DNA from: Delftia tsuruhatensis NBRC 16741
Lineage (GTDB): Bacteria; Pseudomonadota; Gammaproteobacteria; Burkholderiales; Burkholderiaceae_C
Length of the DNA stretch: 64,000 nucleotides
Assembly: GCF_001571325.1 (NCBI RefSeq)
Contig: NZ_BCTO01000043.1
Location: forward strand, 1-64,000
Reading direction: 5' to 3'
Shown here: piece after piece, positions 13,816 through 26,099 of the stretch
Numbering within the stretch: position 1 is the stretch's first letter
Layout of the letters: each line of letters opens with the position of its first letter
Notes under the pieces: generated by a model
What the model saw: only the letters and a program-made list of their open reading frames with translations
What the model was told of the DNA's origin: nothing
Database searches by the model: none
Translations under genes and position numbers: made by a program

Positions 13816-15081
13816 ATGAAAACCGCTCTCAACTTTCTTGTGGCCGCGCGCCAGTGCGAAATCGGCGAGCTGGAGCAACTGCAGCGCACCAGCGCACTGG
13901 TGGATCTGCTCAGCCGCCTCATCCATGCGCTGCAAAAGGAGCGCGGCCTGTCCAACGTCTTTCTGGCCAGCGCGGGCGCGCATGGCGGCGAGGCACGGCT
14001 GGCGCAGATGGCCGAGTGCGACCGGATTGCCGCGGCGGCGCTTGACGGCTTCGACCGGCTGGACATGCAGCCCGGCCAAACAGACTCCACGGGACACCCC
14101 GGCCATGGCGCGCGGCTGTTCAGCCGCATCGCCCATGTGCTGCAGTGCCTGGACGCCCTGCCTGCGCTGCGCGAGCGCGTCGCCAGCCACGACCTGTCGC
14201 CGGAGGCGGCCACCGCCATCTACATCGAGCTGGTGGCAGGCCTGCTGGCCGTGGTGTTCGAGGCGGCCGACAGCGCACCCGAGCCCGGCATCTCGCGCCT
14301 GCTGGTGGCCTTGTTCAACTTCATGCAGGGCAAGGAATTCGCGGGCCAGGAGCGTGCCACGGGCGTGGCCGCCTTTGGTGCGGGCGTCAGCGATGCGCCG
14401 CGCCAGCAGCACTGGCTGCACCTGATCGCCTCGCAGGAGCGCTGCTTTCAGGTCTTTGCGGAGTTCGCGCCGCCCCATTCCCTGGCCCTGTGGCAAGAAA
14501 GCAGCGCGGCCGACGCCACGCTGGCCGTGATCGAACGCCTGCGCCGCGTGGGCTGCACGGCCGCGCCGGGCACTCCCCTGGCGCCGGAGATGGCCGAGCC
14601 CTGGTTCGACAGCTGCTCGCGGCGCATGGATGCGCTGCACACCGTCGAGGCCCGCCTGACGGCCGAGCTGCAGCAGCAGTGCCAGCGCTGCATTGTCGAT
14701 GCGCGCGCCGCCCTGCAGACGCTGCTGCAGGCGCCGCAGGCAATGGAGATCACGCCCGTCTCCGCCACGCTGGCGCTGGGCGGGCTGCAGCCCCCGGCCG
14801 CGCGTCTGGGCCCGCAGCTGGACCGATCCGTGATGGACCTGGTGCAGGACCAGTCCCAGCGGCTGCAGGCCATGCAGGCCGAGCTGGAGACCGTGCGCGC
14901 CACGCTGACGGAACGCAAGCTGCTGGAGCGCGCCAAGGGCCTGTTGATGACACGGCGCCAGCTCAGCGAAGGCGAGGCCCACAAGCTGCTGCGCCAGACC
15001 GCCATGAACCAGAACCGCCGCCTGGCCGAAGTGGCGCAGGCCGTGCTTTCCATGGCCGATCTGCTGCCGCCCGCCCCATGA
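13816..15081 (+). CDS. nasR: NIT-ANTAR nitrate-responsive transcription antiterminator (NasR-like)
   Basis: A 421-residue cytosolic regulator. The N-terminal 300 or so residues form an all-helical nitrate- and nitrite-sensing NIT domain (ALQKERGLSNVFLAS near 38; the helix IYIELVAGLLAVVFEAAD near 140). The C-terminal ANTAR RNA-binding domain (about 360-415) carries ERKLLERAKGLLMTRRQLSEGEA and NRRLAEVAQAVL. In Klebsiella, NasR binds hexaloop hairpins in the nas leader when nitrate is bound and prevents termination. The neighbouring nrt genes and the matching leader hairpins downstream support the same job here. The ATG at 13816 was chosen because the NIT domain starts just after it; the longer frame upstream is unrelated intergenic sequence. 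Confidence 0.9.
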   Translation: MKTALNFLVAARQCEIGELEQLQRTSALVDLLSRLIHALQKERGLSNVFLASAGAHGGEARLAQMAECDRIAAAALDGFDRLDMQPGQTDSTGHPGHGARLFSRIAHVLQCLDALPALRERVASHDLSPEAATAIYIELVAGLLAVVFEAADSAPEPGISRLLVALFNFMQGKEFAGQERATGVAAFGAGVSDAPRQQHWLHLIASQERCFQVFAEFAPPHSLALWQESSAADATLAVIERLRRVGCTAAPGTPLAPEMAEPWFDSCSRRMDALHTVEARLTAELQQQCQRCIVDARAALQTLLQAPQAMEITPVSATLALGGLQPPAARLGPQLDRSVMDLVQDQSQRLQAMQAELETVRATLTERKLLERAKGLLMTRRQLSEGEAHKLLRQTAMNQNRRLAEVAQAVLSMADLLPPAP

Positions 15082-15112: not shown

Positions 15113-15129
15113 AGCACCGACTTGGTGCA
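15113..15129. promoter_or_regulatory. NtrC-type enhancer site upstream of the nitrate transporter promoter
   Basis: GCACC-GACTT-GGTGC (15114-15128) is an exact match to the dyad core GCACC-N5-GGTGC of NtrC sites. A second, imperfect dyad (GCACC-AGAA-GGTGG) lies at 15147-15160. They sit about 55-100 bp upstream of the sigma-54 -24 element, the usual enhancer range. Confidence 0.7.
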
Positions 15130-15213
15130 GTGCTGCGGCAAGTCGCGCACCAGAAGGTGGCCCGGCGCGGACGGCAAGGCCGGTGGAGTGCATGGTCCCC
15201 CTTGAACGCCGCC

Positions 15214-15229
15214 TGGCACGGTTTCTGCA
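15214..15229 (+). promoter_or_regulatory. Sigma-54 promoter of the nrt operon
   Basis: TGGCACGGTTTCTGCA matches the -24/-12 consensus (TGGCAC-N5-TTGCA), with GG at 15215-15216 and GC at 15227-15228 separated by exactly 10 bp. The predicted start of transcription, near 15240, is immediately before the leader hairpin. Confidence 0.75.
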
Positions 15230-15239
15230 TTGACTCTGG

Positions 15240-15345
15240 CAAATCCCGGCCAAAGGCGGCCGGGAACCCGGTCTTGATTCAGGGCCCCAGGACAACGGCG
15301 TCACTCTCCCCGCGCAGCGCGGCCGGAGAGGACGCCGTTTTGCTT
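15240..15345 (+). ncRNA. ANTAR-responsive leader RNA of the nrt operon
   Basis: The predicted 5' leader opens with a perfect 8-bp hairpin, TCCCGGCC (15244-15251) / GGCCGGGA (15258-15265), whose loop AAAGGC is a hexanucleotide with A at position 1 and G at position 4, the ANTAR-target rule. A weak second hexaloop, GAC-AACGGC-GTC (15291-15302), would overlap the 5' arm of the terminator and so be mutually exclusive with it. A long terminator hairpin follows. The NIT-ANTAR gene lies directly upstream. The fold and binding are inferred from base-pairing and family knowledge. Confidence 0.72.
15294..15341 (+). terminator. Leader (attenuator) terminator of the nrt operon
   Basis: AACGGCGTC (15294-15302) pairs with GACGCCGTT (15331-15339). 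Inside it CTCTCC (15304-15309) pairs with GGAGAG (15325-15330), and CCGCG (15310-15314) with CGCGG (15318-15322). TTTTGCTT follows. It precedes the first gene of its own operon by about 55 bases, as expected for an attenuator rather than an operon end. Confidence 0.75.
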
Positions 15346-15398
15346 GGGACATGCCGGTTTGCAAGTGTTCCATTCCCGACGATCGAAGGAGTTCCGCC

Positions 15399-16679
15399 AT
15401 GGCGTCCACGCCCCAGCCCACCACAGGCCCTCTCACCTCCGGCCCGGCACTGCCCCGGCGCGATTTTCTGCGCCAGGCCGGCACGCTGGCAGGCGGCGCG
15501 GCGCTCTACACCCAGCTGGGCCACCACGGCGCCTGGGCGGCAGGCTCGGATGCGCCCGAGAAAAAGGAAGTGCGCATCGGCTTCATTCCGCTGACCGATT
15601 GCGCCAGCGTGGTCATGGCCTCGGTGCTGGGGATCGACCAGAAGTACGGCGTCAGGATCATTCCCTCCAAGGAAGCGAGCTGGGCCAGCGTGCGCGACAA
15701 GCTGGCCAATGGCGAACTGGACTTTGCCCATGTGCTGTACGGCCTGGTCTACGGCATGCACCTGGGCGTGGGCGGCGCCCGGAAGGACATGGCCGTGCTG
15801 ATGACGCTCAACCACAACGGCCAGGCCATCACGCTGTCCAAGAAGCTGGCCGACAAGGGCGCCGTCAACGGCGCAGGCCTGGCCAAGCTGATGGCCAGCG
15901 AAAAGCGCGAATACACCTTTGCCCAGACCTTTCCCACGGGCACGCATGCCATGTGGCTGTACTACTGGCTGGCGGCCAACGGCATCCACCCGCTCAAGGA
16001 TGCCAAGGTCATCACCGTGCCGCCGCCGCAGATGGTGGCCAACATGCGCGTGGGCAACATGGACGGCTTCTGCGTGGGCGAGCCCTGGAACCACCGCGCC
16101 ATCATGGACGGCATCGGCGTCACGGCCACCACCTCCCAGGCCATCTGGCAGGACCATCCCGAGAAGGTGCTGGGCACCACGGCCGAATTTGCCCGCCAGA
16201 ACCCCAATACGGCACGCGCCGTGACGGCCGCCATCATCGAGGCCGGCCGCTGGATCGACGAGAGCCTGGCCAACAAGACCCGCATGGCCGACACCATTGC
16301 CGGCAAGGCCTATGTGAACACCGGCGTGGACGCCATCAACCAGCGCATCCTGGGCCGCTACCAGGACGGCATGGGCAAGACCTGGGACGACCCCCACCAC
16401 ATGAAGTTCTATGGCGACGGCAGCGTGGGCTATCCCTATCTGTCCGACGGCATGTGGTTCCTCACCCAGCACAAGCGCTGGGGCCTGCTCAAGGACCACC
16501 CCGACTACCTGGGCGTGGCCCGCTCCATCAACCGCCTGGACATCTACCAGCAGGCCGCCACCGCCGCCAAGGCCCCGCTGCCCAAGGGCGAGATGCGCAG
16601 CAGCAAGCTGATGGACGGCACGGTCTGGGACGGCAAGGACCCGCGCAAGTACGCGGACAGCTTCGCCCTCAAGGCCTGA
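15399..16679 (+). CDS. nrtA: Nitrate ABC transporter substrate-binding protein (NrtA/CmpA type)
   Basis: A 426-residue periplasmic nitrate/nitrite receptor. The N-terminus has a twin-arginine signal (PRRDFLRQAG followed by AGGAALYTQLG), so export by Tat is likely. The mature part starts near KEVRIGFIPLTDCASVVMA and keeps family segments such as YTFAQTFPTGTHAMWLYYW and GNMDGFCVGEPWNHRA, which line the anion pocket in NrtA/CmpA. The ATG at 15399 follows an AAGGAG site; upstream in-frame sequence belongs to the leader RNA. It is the first gene of nrtABD. Bicarbonate (CmpA) is an alternative ligand, but the nasR and leader context favours nitrate. Confidence 0.9.
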   Translation: MASTPQPTTGPLTSGPALPRRDFLRQAGTLAGGAALYTQLGHHGAWAAGSDAPEKKEVRIGFIPLTDCASVVMASVLGIDQKYGVRIIPSKEASWASVRDKLANGELDFAHVLYGLVYGMHLGVGGARKDMAVLMTLNHNGQAITLSKKLADKGAVNGAGLAKLMASEKREYTFAQTFPTGTHAMWLYYWLAANGIHPLKDAKVITVPPPQMVANMRVGNMDGFCVGEPWNHRAIMDGIGVTATTSQAIWQDHPEKVLGTTAEFARQNPNTARAVTAAIIEAGRWIDESLANKTRMADTIAGKAYVNTGVDAINQRILGRYQDGMGKTWDDPHHMKFYGDGSVGYPYLSDGMWFLTQHKRWGLLKDHPDYLGVARSINRLDIYQQAATAAKAPLPKGEMRSSKLMDGTVWDGKDPRKYADSFALKA

Positions 16680-16719
16680 GAGATCCCCTTTGAAGACCCA
16701 TCCCACCGAGGAACACACC

Positions 16720-17655
16720 ATGGTCAGCGCCGTCTTCCACTTCCCGGCAGAGTCCTCCACCGCCGCCGCCCCGCCTGCGCCGGCTTCCCCCACCGCTGCA
16801 TCCCCGGTCCCGGCCATGCAGGCTGCACCGGCAACGCCCAGGACTCCCGCCCCTGCGCGCGACTGGGCGGCGCTGCCGCGCGCCTTCTGGCTGGCCGTGC
16901 TGCCGCCGCTGTGCGGCCTCGGCCTGCTCGTGGGCGTGTGGTCCCTGGTGGCCGCAGGCTCGGGCCAGAGCATTCCGGGGCCCCTGGCGACCTGGCAGCA
17001 GGCGGTGGAGATTTTCAGCGACCCGTTCTACCGCAACGGCCCCAATGACCAGGGCGTGGGCTGGAACGTGCTCGCCTCGCTGCAGCGCGTGGCCGTGGGC
17101 TTCGGCCTGGCGGCCCTGGTCGGCATTCCGGCCGGCTTCGTGATCGGGCGCTTCAACTTCCTGTCGCGCATGTTCAACCCGCTGATCAGCCTGCTGCGCC
17201 CGGTGTCGCCGCTGGCCTGGCTGCCCATAGGCCTGCTGGTCTTCAAGGGCGCCAACCCGGCGGCCATCTGGACCATCTTCATCTGCTCGATCTGGCCCAT
17301 GCTCATCAACACCGCCGTGGGCGTGCAGCGCGTGCCCCAGGACTACATGAACGTGGCGCGCGTGCTCAACCTCAGCGAGTGGAAGATCGCCACCACCATC
17401 CTGTTCCCGGCCGTGCTGCCCTACATGCTGACCGGCGTGCGCCTGGCCGTGGGCACGGCCTGGCTGGTCATCGTCGCGGCCGAGATGCTCACCGGCGGCG
17501 TGGGCATCGGCTTCTGGGTCTGGGACGAGTGGAACAACCTCAACGTCAAGAACATCATCATCGCGATCTTCGTGATAGGCATCGTGGGCCTGCTGCTGGA
17601 GATGGCCCTGGTCAAGCTGGCAACGGCATTTACGTTCGAAGAGGTGAAGGCATGA
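16720..17655 (+). CDS. nrtB: Nitrate ABC transporter permease (NrtB type)
   Basis: A 311-residue inner-membrane permease of the NitT/TauT family. A Pro/Ala-rich N-terminal stretch (about 10-45) is unusual for its length and is followed by about six helices. The cytoplasmic coupling loop around RVLNLSEWKIATTILFPAVLPYMLTG corresponds to the EAA motif that docks with the ATPase. The ATG at 16720 has GAGGA upstream and is preferred to a TTG 30 bases earlier. It sits 40 bp after nrtA, and its stop overlaps the nrtD start (ATGA, 17652-17655). Confidence 0.9.
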   Translation: MVSAVFHFPAESSTAAAPPAPASPTAASPVPAMQAAPATPRTPAPARDWAALPRAFWLAVLPPLCGLGLLVGVWSLVAAGSGQSIPGPLATWQQAVEIFSDPFYRNGPNDQGVGWNVLASLQRVAVGFGLAALVGIPAGFVIGRFNFLSRMFNPLISLLRPVSPLAWLPIGLLVFKGANPAAIWTIFICSIWPMLINTAVGVQRVPQDYMNVARVLNLSEWKIATTILFPAVLPYMLTGVRLAVGTAWLVIVAAEMLTGGVGIGFWVWDEWNNLNVKNIIIAIFVIGIVGLLLEMALVKLATAFTFEEVKA

Positions 17656-18458
17656 ATGCATCGTCCAAGTTCATCGAGATCCAGGGCGTGGAGCAGAGCT
17701 TCAAGACCGCCAAGGGCCTGTTTCCAGCACTGCGCAATATCGACCTGACCATTGCGCGGGGCGAGTTCGTCTCGCTGATCGGCCACTCGGGCTGCGGCAA
17801 GTCCACCCTGCTGAACCTGATCGCGGGCCTGACCACGCCCACCACGGGCGTGCTGCTGTGCGCCAACAAGGAGGTCAAGGGCCCGGGACCCGAGCGCGCC
17901 GTGGTCTTCCAGAACCACTCGCTGCTGCCCTGGCTGACCTGCGAGGGCAACATCCACCTGGCCGTGGAGCGCGTCTATGGCCGCACGGAAAGCCGCGCCC
18001 AGCTCAAGGCCCGCACCCTGGCCGCGCTGGAACTGGTGGGCCTGGCCCATGCCGCGCACAAGCGGCCCGGCGAGATATCGGGCGGCATGAAGCAGCGCGT
18101 GGGCATTGCGCGCGCGCTGTCGATGGAGCCGCAGGTGCTGCTGATGGACGAGCCCTTCGGCGCGCTCGATGCGCTCACGCGCGCCAAGCTGCAGGACGAG
18201 CTGCTGGAGATCGTGGCGCGCACGCAAAGCACCGTGGTCATGGTCACGCACGATGTGGACGAGGCCGTGCTGCTGTCCGACAAGATCGTGATGATGACCA
18301 ACGGCCCGGCCGCCACCATCGGCGAGGTGCTGCAGGTCGGCCTGGCCCGCCCGCGCAACCGCGTGGCGCTGGCCGAGGACGACCTCTACCGCCAGTGCCG
18401 CAAGGCCGTGATCGATTTCCTCTACACCCGCCAGGGGCATGTGGAAAAGGCGGCCTGA
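17652..18458 (+). CDS. nrtD: Nitrate ABC transporter ATP-binding protein (NrtD type)
   Basis: A 268-residue ABC ATPase. Walker A is GHSGCGKST (about residues 42-50), the Q-loop is VVFQNHSLLPW, the signature is ISGGMKQRVGIARAL (about 140-154), Walker B is LLMDEPFGALDA, and the H-loop is VTHDVDEAV. It lacks the C-terminal NrtA-like extension of cyanobacterial NrtC, so one homodimer of this gene product would serve the permease. It is translationally coupled to nrtB. A 7-bp hairpin without a T-run (18488-18506) lies between it and the converging CBS gene. Confidence 0.92.
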   Translation: MNASSKFIEIQGVEQSFKTAKGLFPALRNIDLTIARGEFVSLIGHSGCGKSTLLNLIAGLTTPTTGVLLCANKEVKGPGPERAVVFQNHSLLPWLTCEGNIHLAVERVYGRTESRAQLKARTLAALELVGLAHAAHKRPGEISGGMKQRVGIARALSMEPQVLLMDEPFGALDALTRAKLQDELLEIVARTQSTVVMVTHDVDEAVLLSDKIVMMTNGPAATIGEVLQVGLARPRNRVALAEDDLYRQCRKAVIDFLYTRQGHVEKAA

Positions 18459-19854: not shown

Positions 19855-21543
19855 TCAGCCCGTGGTCAGCGCCGGCTGCGGCTGGGTGCGCGGCGGCCGC
19901 AGCGGCGGCAGCGGCGCCTGCGCCTTCATGGACCGGCGCAGCGCCACTGCATCAGCCACGGCCGCCGGTGCCCGGGCCGTGGCGTCCAGCCGGAAGACCT
20001 GCACGGTCTCCGACACGGTCTGCGCCTGGGCCTGCAAGGCCATGGCCAATGCCGCGTTCTGCTCCACCAGCGCCGCGTTCTGCTGCGTGATGTTGTCCAG
20101 ATGCGCCACGGCCGCGTTGACCTGCGAGATGCCGCTGAGCTGCTCGTTGGAGGCGCTGTGGATTTCGCCGATCAGCAGGTTCACGCGCCGCACCAGGTCC
20201 AGCGATTCGGTCATGGTTTTCTGCGCGACCTCGGTGCGCCGATTGCCATCCAGCACCTTGGCGGCGGAGTCGTCTATGAGTTCGCGGATCTCCTTGGCCG
20301 CTGCCTGCGTGCGCTGCGAGAGGCTGCGCACTTCGGCCGCCACCACCGCAAATCCCCGGCCCTGGTCGCCCGCGCGCGCGGCCTCCACGGCGGCGTTCAG
20401 CGCCAGGATGTTGGTCTGGAAGGCGATGGAGTCGATGAGCTGCGTGATCTCGCCGATACGCCCCGACGCGGCCTGGATCTGCTTCATGGTGGCCGCCACG
20501 CCGTCGACGGCGCCGCTGCTGCGCTCGGCCACCTCGCTGGCCTGGGTGGCCAGGTCCGTGGCCTGGCGCGCCGACTCGGCCGTGTGCTTGACCGTGCCCG
20601 TGATCTCCTCCATCGAGGCCGCCGTCTGCTGCAGGTTGCCGGCCTGGGTTTCCGTGCGCGCGGACAGGTCCTGGTTGCCCTGCGCGATTTCCCGCGTGGA
20701 GATCTGCATCTTGTCGCTTTCCTCGCGCGCATCGCGCACGATGGACAGCAGGTTCACATTGAGCTGGCTCAGCGCCTTCTGCAGATCGCCCACCACGTCC
20801 TTGCGCGTGATGCGTATGGTCTGCGTCAGGTCGCCGGCCGCCAGGCGGTTGGCCTGCAGCACCATCTGCGCCAGCGGCGCCACGGTCAGCCGGTACGCCC
20901 AGGCCCCGGCCAGCCCCGTGAAGATGCAGACCGCCAGCCAGGCCAGCGCGGACCATGCATCCAGCGTGTGCCCTCCCGCCATCGCCGCGCCAAAGGCTGC
21001 CGCCACCACCAGGAAGAAGATCAGCACCAGCTTGCCTGCCAGGCCCAGGCTCAGCGCGCTGGCAAGGCGTCCGCGCAGGTTGTTGCGCACCAGATGGCCG
21101 GCGCGCAGCACGTGGACCTTGCGCCCTGCGTCCTTTTCGGCGCGCATGGTGGCGTAGAGGCGCTCGGCCGCATCCGTCTGCTCGCGCGTGGCCTCGGTGC
21201 GCACCGACATGTAGCCCGAGGGCCGGTCGCCTTCCATCAGCGGCGTGACATTGGCCATGACCCAGTAGAAGTCGCCGTTCTTGCGCCGGTTCTTCACGGG
21301 CGCCGACCAGGGCAGGCCGGCCGAGATGGTGGCCCACATGTCGCGGAAGGCTTCCTCGGGCATGTCGGGGTGGCGGATCATGTTGTGGGGCTGGCCCAGC
21401 AGTTCTTCGCGCTCGTAGCCGCTGACCTCGATGAACATCGGGTTGCAGTAGAGGATGCGCCCCTTCAGGTCCGTGGTGGACACCAGGGTCTGGCCCTTGG
21501 GAAATGCGTATTCACGCGTGCTGACTGGCAGATTCACTCTCAT
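19855..21543 (-). CDS. Methyl-accepting chemotaxis protein with N-terminal PAS domain (Aer-like)
   Basis: A 562-residue chemoreceptor. A cytoplasmic PAS domain (about residues 15-115: GRILYCNPMFIEVSGYEREELLGQPHNMIRHPDMP) matches Aer, which binds FAD to sense redox or oxygen. Two close hydrophobic segments (about 160-205) form a membrane hairpin without a periplasmic sensor, followed by HAMP and a long signalling coiled coil whose hairpin tip is IDSIAFQTNILALNAAVEAA. The C-terminal tail lacks an obvious NWETF-like CheR pentapeptide. It is transcribed alone. The PAS ligand is inferred from the Aer similarity. Confidence 0.9.
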   Translation of the reverse strand: MRVNLPVSTREYAFPKGQTLVSTTDLKGRILYCNPMFIEVSGYEREELLGQPHNMIRHPDMPEEAFRDMWATISAGLPWSAPVKNRRKNGDFYWVMANVTPLMEGDRPSGYMSVRTEATREQTDAAERLYATMRAEKDAGRKVHVLRAGHLVRNNLRGRLASALSLGLAGKLVLIFFLVVAAAFGAAMAGGHTLDAWSALAWLAVCIFTGLAGAWAYRLTVAPLAQMVLQANRLAAGDLTQTIRITRKDVVGDLQKALSQLNVNLLSIVRDAREESDKMQISTREIAQGNQDLSARTETQAGNLQQTAASMEEITGTVKHTAESARQATDLATQASEVAERSSGAVDGVAATMKQIQAASGRIGEITQLIDSIAFQTNILALNAAVEAARAGDQGRGFAVVAAEVRSLSQRTQAAAKEIRELIDDSAAKVLDGNRRTEVAQKTMTESLDLVRRVNLLIGEIHSASNEQLSGISQVNAAVAHLDNITQQNAALVEQNAALAMALQAQAQTVSETVQVFRLDATARAPAAVADAVALRRSMKAQAPLPPLRPPRTQPQPALTTG

Positions 21544-21793
21544 AGGCGTGGTCCCTTGAAGAAGAAAAATCCTTCACGTCATTGCGGCCCTGGCTTACTG
21601 CAGGACCCGGTGGCTTGTTGTACCCCGATTCGTCGCATTTGAAACAAATCGCCACAAAACCTCCATTCGATTCAGACATCTGATTGCGCGCTCTCGATAG
21701 CGGGCGCACCGCCTTGAGGCATGCGACGCACCACCATGGCTCGGCCGCCGGGCGGCAGCCCCGAGGACAGCGCCCGCGCAGGGCTGCGCGCCC
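21544..21793. other. Regulatory gap upstream of the nas operon with possible NtrC half-sites
   Basis: The segment holds no supportable gene; short open frames in it lack ribosome-binding sites. Two GCACC half-sites (21706-21710 and 21728-21732) lie about 60-90 bp upstream of the sigma-54 promoter. Each has a degenerate right half, so NtrC binding is only possible. The AT-richer part (about 21600-21680) probably contains the divergent chemoreceptor promoter. Confidence 0.35.
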
Positions 21794-21809
21794 TGGCATG
21801 CCGCTTGCT
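21794..21809 (+). promoter_or_regulatory. Sigma-54 promoter of the nitrate reductase operon
   Basis: TGGCATGCCGCTTGCT matches -24/-12 consensus, with GG at 21795-21796 and GC at 21807-21808, exactly 10 bp apart. The predicted start near 21820 again falls directly before a hexaloop hairpin. Confidence 0.72.
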
Positions 21810-21819
21810 TCATCCCGTG

Positions 21820-21937
21820 CGTGGCCATTGCAGGCCATGGGGGCAAGGCGCAACGAGGTGCCGCTGCCCCAGGGACAAAGGCGTCAACCCGCGCGCAGGC
21901 AGCAGCCGCGCAGTGGGGATGACGCCTTTTTGCTTTT
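21820..21937 (+). ncRNA. ANTAR-responsive leader RNA of the nitrate reductase operon
   Basis: Two hexaloop hairpins obeying the A1/G4 rule are visible. The first is TGGCC-ATTGCA-GGCCA (21822-21837). The second is GGCGC-AACGAG-GTGCC (21847-21862), nested in an outer stem GGGGCA/TGCCCC (21840-21845 with 21865-21870). A third candidate loop, GAC-AAAGGC-GTC (21874-21885), overlaps the 5' arm of the downstream terminator. The layout matches the dual-hexaloop ANTAR target and parallels the nrt leader; the block 21867-21886 is almost identical to 15285-15303. Confidence 0.75.
21877..21931 (+). terminator. Leader (attenuator) terminator of the nitrate reductase operon
   Basis: AAAGGCGTCA (21877-21886) pairs exactly with TGACGCCTTT (21920-21929), with further GC-rich pairing inside. 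Five T residues (21927-21931) and then GCTTTT follow. It lies 27 bases before the first gene of the operon, so it must be read through for expression. Confidence 0.78.
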
Positions 21938-21957: not shown

Positions 21958-23211
21958 ATGAAGAAATCCAGGCTGGTGATGGTGGGCAACGGCATGGCCG
22001 GCGTGCGCACGCTGGAAGAGCTGCTCAGGATCGCGCCCGACCTCTACGAGATCACCGTGTTCGGCGCCGAGCCGCACCCCAACTACAACCGCATCATGCT
22101 GTCGCCCGTGCTGGCGGGCGAGCAGCAGCTGGACGAAATCATCCTCAACGACTGGTCCTGGTATGCCCGGCACGGCATCACCTTGCATGCAGGCTGCCGC
22201 GTGCATGCGGTGGACCGGGCGCGCCGCGTGGTGCATGCCGTGGACGCCACCGGCCAGCCCGTGAGCGCCGGGTACGACCGCCTGATCCTGGCCACGGGAT
22301 CGCGCCCCTTCATGCTGCCCGTGCCCGGGCGCGAGCTGGAAGGCGTGCTCGGCTACCGCGACATTGCCGACACCCAGGCCATGATCGCGGCGGCCGCCAG
22401 CCACCGCCAGGCGGTGGTCATCGGCGGCGGACTGCTGGGCCTGGAGGCCGCCAACGGCCTCATGAAGCGCGGCATGGAGGTCACCGTGGTGCATGCGGGC
22501 GAGCGCCTGCTGGACCGCCAGCTCGACGAGACCGCCGCCGCCTTGCTGCAGGCCTCGCTGGCCGAGCGCGGCATGCGCTTTCTGATGCAGGCCCAGACCC
22601 GCGCGCTGACGGGCGATGGCCGGGGCCGCGTGGCCTGCGTGCACCTGCAGGACGGGCGCGATGCGCCGGCCTCGCTCGTGGTCATGGCCGTGGGCATCCG
22701 GCCCGAGACCACGCTGGCCGAGCAGATGCACCTGCACGTGCAGCGCGGCATCGTGGTCAGCGACACGCTGCAGACCGTGACCGACCCGCGCATCTATGCC
22801 GTGGGCGAATGCGCGGCGCACCGGGGCGTGGCCTACGGGCTGGTGGCGCCGCTGTTCGAGCAGGGCAAGGTGCTGGCCAACCACCTGGCCGAAATCGGCA
22901 TCGGCCGCTATCCGGGCTCGCAGACCTCGGCCAAGCTCAAGGTCACGGGCATCCATCTGTTCAGCGCAGGCGACTTCCGCGGCGACGACGGCACGGAGGA
23001 AATCGTGCTCAGCGACCCCGGCGCGGGCGTGTACCGCAAGCTGGTGCTGCGCGGCGACAGACTGGTCGGCGCCTGCCTGTATGGCGACACCGAGGACGGT
23101 GGCTGGTACTTCCGCCTGTTGCGCGATGGCGTGGCAGTGCAGGAACTGCGCGACCGCCTCATGTTCGGCGAAAGTCAAGCCAGCCAGGCCGACCCGGCCA
23201 GCGGCCCGTGA
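21958..23211 (+). CDS. Assimilatory nitrate reductase FAD/NADH electron-transfer subunit (NasC/NirB-N-terminal-like)
   Basis: A 417-residue flavoprotein that would pass electrons from NAD(P)H to the catalytic subunit. The FAD-binding motif is MVGNGMAGVRTLEEL at the N-terminus, the NAD(P) motif is VVIGGGLLGLEAANGL (about 155-170), and the FAD-closing motif TDPRIYAVGECA lies near residue 275. The C-terminal region (SAKLKVTGIHLFSAGDF onward) is the NirB-type FAD/NAD C-terminal domain. It lacks the 2Fe-2S, siroheme and 4Fe-4S parts of full NirB (about 850 aa), so it is a stand-alone module like Klebsiella NasC. It is the first gene after the leader RNA, 50 bp before nasA. Confidence 0.85.
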   Translation: MKKSRLVMVGNGMAGVRTLEELLRIAPDLYEITVFGAEPHPNYNRIMLSPVLAGEQQLDEIILNDWSWYARHGITLHAGCRVHAVDRARRVVHAVDATGQPVSAGYDRLILATGSRPFMLPVPGRELEGVLGYRDIADTQAMIAAAASHRQAVVIGGGLLGLEAANGLMKRGMEVTVVHAGERLLDRQLDETAAALLQASLAERGMRFLMQAQTRALTGDGRGRVACVHLQDGRDAPASLVVMAVGIRPETTLAEQMHLHVQRGIVVSDTLQTVTDPRIYAVGECAAHRGVAYGLVAPLFEQGKVLANHLAEIGIGRYPGSQTSAKLKVTGIHLFSAGDFRGDDGTEEIVLSDPGAGVYRKLVLRGDRLVGACLYGDTEDGGWYFRLLRDGVAVQELRDRLMFGESQASQADPASGP

Positions 23212-23261: not shown

Positions 23262-26099
23262 ATGCAAGAAACCCGATCCACCTGCCCCTACTGCGGCACA
23301 GGCTGCGGCGTCATCATCGAAAGCGATGGTGCGCGCATCACGGGCGTGCGTGGCGATCCGGCGCACCCCGCCAACCACGGCCGCCTGTGCACCAAGGGCA
23401 GCACGCTGCATCTGACGGCCTCGCCCGCCCTGGCGCGGCAGACCCGGCTGCTGCAGCCCGCCCTGCGCACCACGCGCGGGGCGGCGCCCCGGGACATCAG
23501 CTGGGATGCCGCGCTGGACCTGGCAGCCGGCAGGCTGGCCTCCATCGTGCAGGAGCACGGCCCCGACGCCGTGGGCCTCTATGTGAGCGGCCAGTTGCTG
23601 ACCGAGGACTACTACGTCTTCAACAAGCTGGCCAAGGGCCTGATCGGCACCAACAACATCGACACCAATTCGCGCCTGTGCATGAGCAGCGCCGTGGCGG
23701 GCTACAAGGCCACGCTGGGCGCCGACGCGCCGCCGGCCTGCTACGAGGACGTGGACCATGCGGACTGCCTGTTCATCGTGGGCAGCAACGCGGCATGGGC
23801 CCATCCCGTGCTCACGCGGCGCATCGAGCAGGCGCGTGCCGCGCGGCCGCAGATGAAGATCATCGTGTCCGACCCACGCCGCACCGACACGGCCGGCATG
23901 GCCGACCTCTTCCTGCCGCTGCGCCCCGGCAGCGACACCCTGCTGTTCCACGGCATGCTGCACATCATGGAGCTGGAAGGCTGGCTGGACCGGGCCTACA
24001 TCGCGCGCCACACCAGCGGCTTTGCCGACCTGCAGGCCCTGGTGCGGGAGGCCACGCCCGAGCGCGTGAGCGAGGTCTGCGGCCTGCCCAGCCACGACCT
24101 TTTCCAGGCCGCGCAGTGGTTCGCGCTGGGAGGAGATGCGCGGGACGGCGCCGCCCGTGGAGCAACGCTCAGCCTGTACTGCCAGGGCCTGAACCAGAGC
24201 AGCAACGGCACGGCCAAGAACGCCGCGCTGATTGGCCTGCACCTGGCCACGGGCCAGATCGGACGCGCAGGCGCAGGGCCGTTCTCGCTCACGGGCCAGC
24301 CCAATGCCATGGGCGGGCGCGAGGTGGGCGGGCTGGCCAATCTGCTGTCGGCGCACCGCGACCTGGCCAACCCCGCCCACCGCGCCGAAGTGGCCGCCCT
24401 GTGGGGCGTGGACGCCGTGCCGCCCCGCCCTGGCAAGACCGCCGTGGAGATGTTCGAGGCCGCCGCCGAGGGCGAGATCCGCGCGCTGTGGATAGCCTGC
24501 ACCAACCCCGCGCAAAGCATGCCCGACCAGGCCCTGGTGCGGCGCGCACTGCAGCGGGCCGAATTCGTCATCGTGCAGGAGGCCTTCGCCACCACCGCCA
24601 CCTGCGCCTACGCCGACCTGCTGCTGCCCGCCACCACCTGGGGCGAGAAGATCGGCACGGTGACCAACAGCGAAAGGCGCATCTCGCGCGTACGCCCCGC
24701 CGTGGCCGCACCGGGCGCCGCGCGCCATGACTGGCACATCGCCGTGGACTGCGCGCGGCGCATGGAAACGCGGCTGCGCCCGGGCCGGCCCAGCCTCTTC
24801 CCCTACGACACCGAGGACGCCGCCGCAGGCGCCGAAGCCATCTGGAACGAGCACCGCGAAAGCACGCGCGGGCGTGACCTGGACATCACCGGCCTGTCCT
24901 GGGATCTGCTGGACGCGCAAGGCCCCCAGCAATGGCCGCTGCCCGAAGGCGCAGCCCTGGGCCGCGCACGGCTCTACGAAGACGGCCGCTTTCCCACGCC
25001 CGATGGACGCGCCCGCTTTGCCCTGCTGCCCTGGCAGCCGCTGGCCGAGTCGCCCGATGCGAGCTACCCCTTCAGCCTGACCACGGGCCGGCTGCGCGAC
25101 CAGTGGCACGGCATGAGCCGCACGGGCCAGCTGGGACGACTGTTCGGCCAGGCTGCCGAGCCCAGTGTGCAGATGCATCCGCAGGACATGGCCGAGCGCG
25201 GCCTGCGCGCGGGCGACCTGGTGCAGATGAGCAGCCGCCGCGGTGCCCTGCTGGTGCCGGTGCAGCCCGATGCCACGCTCGCGCCCTCCCAGCTCTTCAT
25301 GGCCATGCACTGGGGCGGCGAGTACCTGGGCGGCACGGCCACGGGGGGCCTCAACGCACTGACCACGCCAGCCTTCTGCCCCGCATCCAAGCAGCCTGAA
25401 CTCAAGCACACGGCCGTCAAGCTGCAAAAGGCCGCTCTGCCCTGGACCCTGCTGGCCATGGCCTGGCTGCCCGAGGACCGCGTGCTGGCCGTGCGCGAGC
25501 AGTTGTCCGCCCTCATGCCGCACTTCGGCTTTGCCAGCTGCGTGCCTTTCGGCAATGCCGTGCCGCTGCAGGACGCCGCCCGCGCCCGCCACGGCGTGCT
25601 GCTGCGCGCCGCCGCGCATGAGGCGCCCGACGACGCCCTCATCGCGCAGATCGAGTCCCTGCTGGGCCTGGATGCCGCCGACACCCTGCGCTACAGCGAC
25701 CGCCGCCGCCAGCACAGCCGTGCGCTGCGGCTGGACCGCACCAGCCTGTCCACCACGGTCGAAGCCTTGCTGCTGGCCGGAGACACACGCGCCGGCAGCT
25801 GGCTGGGCACCCTGCTGAAGGACCAGTTGCCGGCCCAGGACTATGGGCGCCTGCTGCTCATGTCCTCGGCCTCGGCACCCCTGCCCCTGGCGCAGCGCAC
25901 GCGCCAGGTCTGCGCGTGCTTCGACGTGGACGAGGCCGCCATCGAAGGCGTGCTTGCACGCTGCGAGGGCAGCGACGATGCCCGCCTGGCCGCTTTGCAA
26001 GGCCAATTGCGCTGCGGTACCAACTGCGGCTCCTGCCTGCCTGAACTCAAGCGCCTGGTGCGCCACATCCCCCTCGCGCCCAGCCCGCAGGCGGCATGA
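23262..26099 (+). CDS. nasA: Assimilatory nitrate reductase catalytic subunit
   Basis: A 945-residue cytoplasmic molybdoenzyme that reduces nitrate to nitrite. The N-terminal 4Fe-4S site is CPYCGTGCG with a fourth Cys in GRLCTKG (about residues 8-45). Mo-bis-MGD-binding segments follow (LYVSGQLLTEDYY, TNNIDTNSRLCMSSA, and the molybdopterin dinucleotide-binding part from about 600). The C-terminal 60 residues form a BFD-like 2Fe-2S domain (CACFDVDEAA and CGTNCGSC), as in Klebsiella NasA, which accepts electrons from the FAD subunit. The longer frame upstream of 23262 is an out-of-frame shadow of the FAD gene. No nitrite reductase gene is in the window. Confidence 0.95.
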   Translation: MQETRSTCPYCGTGCGVIIESDGARITGVRGDPAHPANHGRLCTKGSTLHLTASPALARQTRLLQPALRTTRGAAPRDISWDAALDLAAGRLASIVQEHGPDAVGLYVSGQLLTEDYYVFNKLAKGLIGTNNIDTNSRLCMSSAVAGYKATLGADAPPACYEDVDHADCLFIVGSNAAWAHPVLTRRIEQARAARPQMKIIVSDPRRTDTAGMADLFLPLRPGSDTLLFHGMLHIMELEGWLDRAYIARHTSGFADLQALVREATPERVSEVCGLPSHDLFQAAQWFALGGDARDGAARGATLSLYCQGLNQSSNGTAKNAALIGLHLATGQIGRAGAGPFSLTGQPNAMGGREVGGLANLLSAHRDLANPAHRAEVAALWGVDAVPPRPGKTAVEMFEAAAEGEIRALWIACTNPAQSMPDQALVRRALQRAEFVIVQEAFATTATCAYADLLLPATTWGEKIGTVTNSERRISRVRPAVAAPGAARHDWHIAVDCARRMETRLRPGRPSLFPYDTEDAAAGAEAIWNEHRESTRGRDLDITGLSWDLLDAQGPQQWPLPEGAALGRARLYEDGRFPTPDGRARFALLPWQPLAESPDASYPFSLTTGRLRDQWHGMSRTGQLGRLFGQAAEPSVQMHPQDMAERGLRAGDLVQMSSRRGALLVPVQPDATLAPSQLFMAMHWGGEYLGGTATGGLNALTTPAFCPASKQPELKHTAVKLQKAALPWTLLAMAWLPEDRVLAVREQLSALMPHFGFASCVPFGNAVPLQDAARARHGVLLRAAAHEAPDDALIAQIESLLGLDAADTLRYSDRRRQHSRALRLDRTSLSTTVEALLLAGDTRAGSWLGTLLKDQLPAQDYGRLLLMSSASAPLPLAQRTRQVCACFDVDEAAIEGVLARCEGSDDARLAALQGQLRCGTNCGSCLPELKRLVRHIPLAPSPQAA

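Follow-up and report, generated by a model that had tools for sequence, protein, structure and literature searches.

The nitrate uptake operon in the window, that is the whole 64-kb stretch of DNA that was analysed, appears to be preceded by an antitermination leader of the NasR type behind an NtrC/sigma-54 promoter, and the same reading applies to a sister leader further downstream (probability for both roughly 0.87). Most likely, NasR lets RNA polymerase read past stop signals before the uptake operon and again 6.6 kb further on, and does so only after nitrogen shortage has activated the promoter. Such two-gate control, in which nitrogen has to be short and nitrate has to be present, had been proposed in a first-pass annotation of this DNA and is supported by enrichment of the NtrC-type dyad, by the anatomy of the hairpins P1 and P2 and the terminator, by covariation in P1 and by the co-occurrence of leaders and ANTAR genes. 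It has already been described for NasR of Klebsiella and for NasT/NalA of Pseudomonas, and the window holds a further instance. Sequences, alternative folds, conservation, gene context and co-occurrence were obtained here; for protein binding, the direction of control and the nitrate signal, work on NasR, EutV and NasT was followed.

The proposed mechanism runs as follows. Under nitrogen shortage, phosphorylated NtrC bound near 15121 would switch on sigma-54 polymerase at 15214-15229, with transcription beginning near 15240. If nitrate is missing, the nascent RNA would form the 20-pair terminator (15294-15341) and transcription would halt before the transporter genes. If nitrate is present, the ANTAR domain of NasR would be set free by the NIT domain, would bind P1, which serves recruitment, and would then hold P2. 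As long as P2 is held, the 5' arm of the terminator would be occupied and polymerase would read through into the ABC nitrate transporter genes. The sister leader (21794-21931) would do likewise for an operon with nirB-like and nasA genes. As the same switch is predicted at both leaders, one protein would co-ordinate uptake and reduction.

Predicted promoter, leaders and regulator in the window

The elements listed in the first-pass annotation, namely a perfect GCACC-N5-GGTGC dyad, a -24/-12 element, an A1/G4 hexaloop hairpin at the predicted transcription start and a terminator with a 20-bp stem, were all recovered (Table 1), the dyad one base away from where it had been placed and the hairpin with its stem starting 4 nt past the predicted +1. 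The dyad (GCACCGACTTGGTGC) reads GCACC-GACTT-GGTGC. The -24/-12 element (TGGCACGGTTTCTGCA) combines GG-N10-GC with seven of eight further consensus bases, and its position is kept in relatives. With this element, a dyad at conserved spacing and genes for NtrC (above the NCBIfam cut-off) and for two RpoN proteins in the genome, the characteristics of an NtrC/sigma-54 promoter are found together.

Computational folding of the transporter leader recovered P1 (UCCCGGCC-AAAGGC-GGCCGGGA) and the terminator, and the alternative fold with P2 was computed as well. P2 had been absent from the first-pass list. The very bases of its loop and 3' arm double as the 5' arm of the terminator, and this sharing makes an antitermination switch possible, which could not exist without P2. 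As read from its sequence, the leader with P2 is a complete dual-hairpin ANTAR leader, with two A1/G4 hexaloops and a P2 that is mutually exclusive with the terminator, and it matches the P1/P2/overlapping-terminator anatomy of the ANTAR model (PMC3369931). The stem of P2 is just 3 pairs long, and the fold with the terminator reaches -66.5 kcal/mol versus -48.9 kcal/mol with P2 forced. At equilibrium this is a cost of about 18 kcal/mol, thus switching would have to be co-transcriptional and protein-assisted. The U-run of the terminator at 15338-15341 is short and is followed by GCUU; this and the few pairs of P2 count against the proposed switch. The spacer hairpin occupies the middle place, where other leaders have a further A1/G4 hairpin, and is kept in two more leaders of the Delftia group (L026 and L150).

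The proposal of an adjacent upstream NIT-ANTAR gene is borne out by Pfam, which assigns the two domains that define NasR to its product (NIT, PF08376, 187.8 bits; ANTAR, PF03861, 69 bits), and phmmer identifies a clear relative of Klebsiella NasR (E 9.4e-45 against structure 4akk). According to the 4akk alignment, read against PMC7496416, residues matching R340, K341 and K347, which act in RNA binding, are kept, as are those matching the predicted nitrate pocket E175/R176. Of the other RNA-binding residues, K345 is R and W362 is H in the alignment; the K345R exchange in NasR behaved as wild type (PMC7496416). Contacts between the NIT and ANTAR domains that are involved in autoinhibition of Klebsiella NasR are changed, with G in place of E359 and A in place of D201, and like the change at W362 they tell against a switch of the NasR type. 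Apart from the nasR-like gene, a single ANTAR gene was detected genome-wide (L002, 1456-3015, minus strand, contig C45); it is AmiR-like by sequence reading, and control by its product was rejected.

A ribosome binding site (GAAGGAG, 15385-15391) precedes the gene for the substrate-binding protein, and the permease and the ATPase behind it both pass curated cut-offs for nitrate ABC transporters. The N-terminus of the substrate-binding protein (window 15399-15500) carries a twin-arginine-like signal, RRDFLRQAG. A gene for a PAS-HAMP-MCP chemoreceptor (19858-21543, minus strand) lies between the transporter and the nirB-like/nasA operons.

The sister leader, located 6.6 kb downstream, had been missed in the first-pass annotation. 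Its terminator ends 26 bases 5' of the start codon of the NirB-like flavoprotein, which is probably the electron-donating partner of NasA. Its dyad is degenerate with two mismatches, thus NtrC control of the nirB-like/nasA operon is less certain; L026 has a dyad with one mismatch at the matching place. When both strands of the window were searched with the composite pattern, only two matches were obtained, the transporter leader and 21877, and a stricter P2/terminator pattern found only the same two sites and no third leader in the 6.6 Mb genome.

Table 1. Positions of promoter elements, leader hairpins and genes in the window
Feature	Position	Strand	Details and basis
nasR-like gene	13816..15081	+	421 aa, NIT and RNA-binding ANTAR domains; Pfam, phmmer
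NtrC-type enhancer dyad GCACC-N5-GGTGC	15114..15128	none	about 100 bp upstream of -24; motif and comparative enrichment
Sigma-54 -24/-12 element TGGCACGGTTTCTGCA	15214..15229	+	predicted +1 at 15240
Hairpin P1, hexaloop AAAGGC (A1, G4)	15244..15265	+	loop 15252-15257; 8 bp; fold; proposed recruitment hairpin
Spacer hairpin GGUCUUG-AUU-CAGGGCC	15270..15286	+	without ANTAR loop; fold
Antiterminator hairpin P2, GAC(AACGGC)GUC	15291..15302	+	loop 15294-15299; pattern scan, fold
Intrinsic terminator	15294..15341	+	20 pairs, U-run UUUU; fold
Nitrate ABC transporter, substrate-binding protein	15399..16679	+	first gene of operon; Pfam NMT1_2, 337.6 bits
Nitrate ABC transporter, permease	16690..17655	+	TIGR01183 ntrB, 253 bits (cut-off 209)
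Nitrate ABC transporter, ATPase	17652..18458	+	TIGR01184 ntrCD, 329.6 bits (cut-off 291.8)
Degenerate NtrC-like dyad GCACC-GCCTT-GAGGC	21706..21720	none	2 mismatches, weak
Sigma-54 element TGGCATGCCGCTTGCT	21794..21809	+	predicted +1 at 21820
Distal hairpin P0, loop AUUGCA (A1, G4)	21820..21839	+	second leader
Middle hairpin P1, loop AACGAG (A1, G4)	21847..21862	+	second leader
Hairpin P2, GAC(AAAGGC)GUC (A1, G4)	21874..21885	+	second leader; overlaps terminator
Terminator of second leader	21877..21931	+	end UUUUU; fold
NirB-like flavoprotein	21958..23211	+	TIGR02374, 436 bits (below cut-off 578)
Assimilatory nitrate reductase catalytic subunit, NasA/NasC type	23364..26099	+	NF047855 429.7 bits, NF041323 431.1 bits, both below cut-off; start codon provisional

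Conservation of the leader in relatives

Eighty loci with a NIT-ANTAR protein were fetched, mostly from Comamonadaceae, with additional ones from Azoarcus, Thauera, Herbaspirillum and a few gammaproteobacteria. The composite scan of these 1.48 Mb gave 39 matches in 34 of the 80 NasR loci, versus none in order-3 Markov copies, and all but one of the matches precede genes for an ABC nitrate transporter or nirB-like/nasA (nir/nas) genes. The exception, on the minus strand of L100, is without a sigma-54 element and was discarded as likely chance. Across 32 aligned transporter leaders, A1 and G4 of the proximal P1 loop are present in every case, and the P1 stem covaries, with two-sided changes in four of six pairs and 95.8% of cells paired. 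The P2 core and the terminator arm are invariant in the aligned relatives, which is uninformative on P2 covariation, as P2 and terminator had been used for selection.

A wider survey of genomes used a DNA pattern of P2 and terminator only, which is blind to P1 and to NasR. It occurs in 35 of the 300 order genomes and in 87 of the 301 family genomes, and a reversed-pattern control found none. The surveyed leaders precede, among others, genes for ABC nitrate transporters, nirB-like genes and genes for MFS transporters, the last of which resemble NarK by sequence reading, while Pfam gives only MFS_1. An ANTAR gene was present in 34 of the 35 order genomes with a leader versus 113 of the 265 without (the surveyed genomes are related, and these counts are not independent events), and the sole leader genome that has no ANTAR gene is 67% complete. 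At L146 (minus strand), a leader of this type lies before a gene that is truncated by the end of the contig and encodes a HAMP-domain protein, which might be a chemoreceptor or other sensor controlled through ANTAR.

Two other explanations of the transporter leader have to be weighed against these data. The dyad sits within a longer inverted repeat (CGCAGCAC...GTGCTGCG), visible in the sequence just past the nasR stop codon, and might be part of a nasR 3' hairpin and no NtrC site, so that sigma-54 activation would proceed via another activator or site; the dyad of the second leader, which is degenerate, would suit this. However, a U-run is absent after the longer repeat, and the exactly spaced motif recurs upstream of homologous leaders. 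Among 105 non-redundant leaders, for whose choice the DNA before the sigma-54 element played no part, 59 have GCAC-N7-GTGC at most 200 bp upstream of -24, in most of them at a distance of 80-140 bp, whereas five permuted dyads gave 0-2 and other spacers 0-9 occurrences in the same leaders. A 3' hairpin devoid of NtrC binding is thus improbable. It is less probable still that the hairpin at 15294-15341 is a mere nasR terminator or a constitutive attenuator and that transcription of the transporter genes starts further downstream. The hairpin lies between two same-strand genes and has a very stable fold, as a simple terminator would, but the order of sigma-54 element, P1 and terminator-overlapping P2 is kept in many genomes, and also where the upstream gene is no ANTAR gene, as at the second leader in the window.

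Relation to known regulators and RNA families

In Klebsiella, the nasFEDCBA operon opens with the ABC transporter genes nasFED. Its control by NasR and the dual A1/G4 leader mechanism have been described (PMC3369931). Like NasR/nasF of Klebsiella oxytoca, the window system has a NIT-ANTAR gene beside the operon, a dual A1/G4 hexaloop leader, an overlapping terminator and an operon that starts with an ABC transporter. The first-pass annotation had put forward NasR/ANTAR control of an ABC nitrate transporter in this lineage as its own inference; given the precedents of Klebsiella and of Pseudomonas NalA, the arrangement is less new than implied. Unlike Klebsiella oxytoca, the lineage here is betaproteobacterial, and a second leader, with three hexaloop hairpins, would control a nirB-like/nasA operon of its own some 6 kb distant. 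Judged by the features that sequences can test, the system belongs with NasR/nasF and probably works like it. The nasR gene has been called mainly gammaproteobacterial (PMC5424462); among the 80 fetched loci, NIT-ANTAR relatives are common in Comamonadaceae. The findings point to a two-operon, two-gate nitrate regulon in a betaproteobacterium of the Delftia group and to NIT-ANTAR control that is wide in Comamonadaceae.

Other ANTAR systems share parts of this layout. According to a review (PMC12830290), NalA, the nirBD leader of Pseudomonas, combines NtrC activation of a sigma-54 promoter with an ANTAR leader and an overlapping terminator, as proposed here, whereas the sensor there is NasS with the REC-ANTAR protein NasT and here a single NIT-ANTAR protein. 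EutV of Enterococcus acts on a P1 and a terminator-overlapping P2, as in the transporter leader, A1 and G4 of the loops are required (PMC3369931), and recruitment is modelled to be followed by transfer (PMC8934654), but EutV is a REC-ANTAR protein activated by phosphorylation, its leader has two hairpins, and it serves another pathway. The nitrate-responsive ANTAR leader before the nas genes of Paracoccus denitrificans likewise has two hairpins (NasS-NasT/nasA; PMC5424462), and its sensor is NasS-NasT and not NIT-ANTAR.

At curated Rfam thresholds, no matches were obtained in the window, nor at E 0.01 in six related loci. Below the gathering scores, narK RNA (RF03032) reached 30.8 bits at 15215-15304 (gathering score 43.2) and P11 (RF00625) 30.2 bits at 15202-15336 (gathering score 70). 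P11 and NalA are presumably the same RNA. The printed consensus of RF03032 starts with a GG-N10-GC sigma-54 element and contains two A1/G4 hexaloops, AACGGC and AAAGAC, so the narK RNA family looks like an ANTAR nitrate leader that includes promoter DNA; it differs from the transporter leader in linker length. The two Rfam entries are suggested to be one leader class. A literature search that covered mainly open-access main texts found nothing that links narK RNA or P11 to ANTAR.

Leaders with three hairpins and possible exchange of the sensor

Beyond the NasR-type switch in the window, many nitrate-assimilation leaders of proteobacteria might be three-hairpin ANTAR elements with two recruitment hairpins and an antiterminator, of which lineages would keep the distal hairpin, the proximal one or both, while NIT-ANTAR NasR or REC-ANTAR NasT would be swapped as sensor over the same RNA. 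This proposal is evenly balanced. Of the 105 leaders, 24 have a pair of A1/G4 hexaloop hairpins before P2, which with P2 makes three, when stems of 5 or more pairs are required, compared with 0.02 in dinucleotide shuffles and 0 in upstream DNA of equal length. In an order sample of 25 leaders, selected by P2, terminator and sigma-54 element alone, 15 had the three-hairpin form with stems of 4 or more pairs, compared with 0.03 in shuffles.

The extra A1/G4 hairpin may still be a structural spacer that is unbound by the ANTAR protein, which is a real possibility, though not the expected outcome. It would fit that many leaders of the Variovorax type retain a covarying distal stem with a loop that no longer has A1/G4 (A1 in 12 of 32), and that in the transporter leader of the window this position is taken by a hairpin without an ANTAR loop. 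However, when the hexaloop hairpins of each leader other than the longest were chosen irrespective of the loop, 26 of 42 carried A1/G4 versus about 7% expected, and this excess, together with that of leaders with two such hairpins upstream of P2, suggests that loop identity is selected.

If the three-hairpin proposal is true, an additional site would make the response more sensitive to nitrate or the transfer to P2 more efficient. One recruitment hairpin precedes the uptake operon and two precede the reductase operon, and the operons may thus respond at different nitrate levels. Previous work favours recruitment followed by transfer, with one upstream hairpin recruiting the protein before P2, and raises the question why a protein dimer that holds one hexaloop at a time needs two (PMC8934654). 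The three-hairpin pattern suits such a sequence of events if spacing and number of hairpins are flexible. Leaders whose sole difference is which of the upstream hairpins bear an ANTAR loop provide natural variants for this question, and for asking whether the upstream hairpin serves recruitment, with its number and distance tuning the response. Thirteen ANTAR motifs have been reported in six transcription units of one Desulfotomaculum (PMC3369931), thus several motifs in one unit have a precedent. No description of a three-hairpin ANTAR leader was found in a literature made up mainly of open-access main texts, which does not prove novelty; the form may be a new variant of a system that is otherwise of known type.

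NIT-ANTAR proteins were found in only 14 of 300 genomes at E 1e-20. Beyond the family of the window, many genomes with a leader encode a short ANTAR protein and give no NIT-ANTAR match. Six of eight scanned short proteins are REC-ANTAR like NasT, and at one locus a protein of the nitrate-binding type is encoded directly after the ANTAR gene, as NasS would be. Different sensors thus appear to act on the same RNA.

As a separate observation, leaders of Variovorax and relatives (L030-L053) keep a distal stem AGACC/GGUCU about 55-60 nt upstream of P2, and in several of them the A1/G4 hexaloop is swapped for other loops, including UUCG and GCAA tetraloops.
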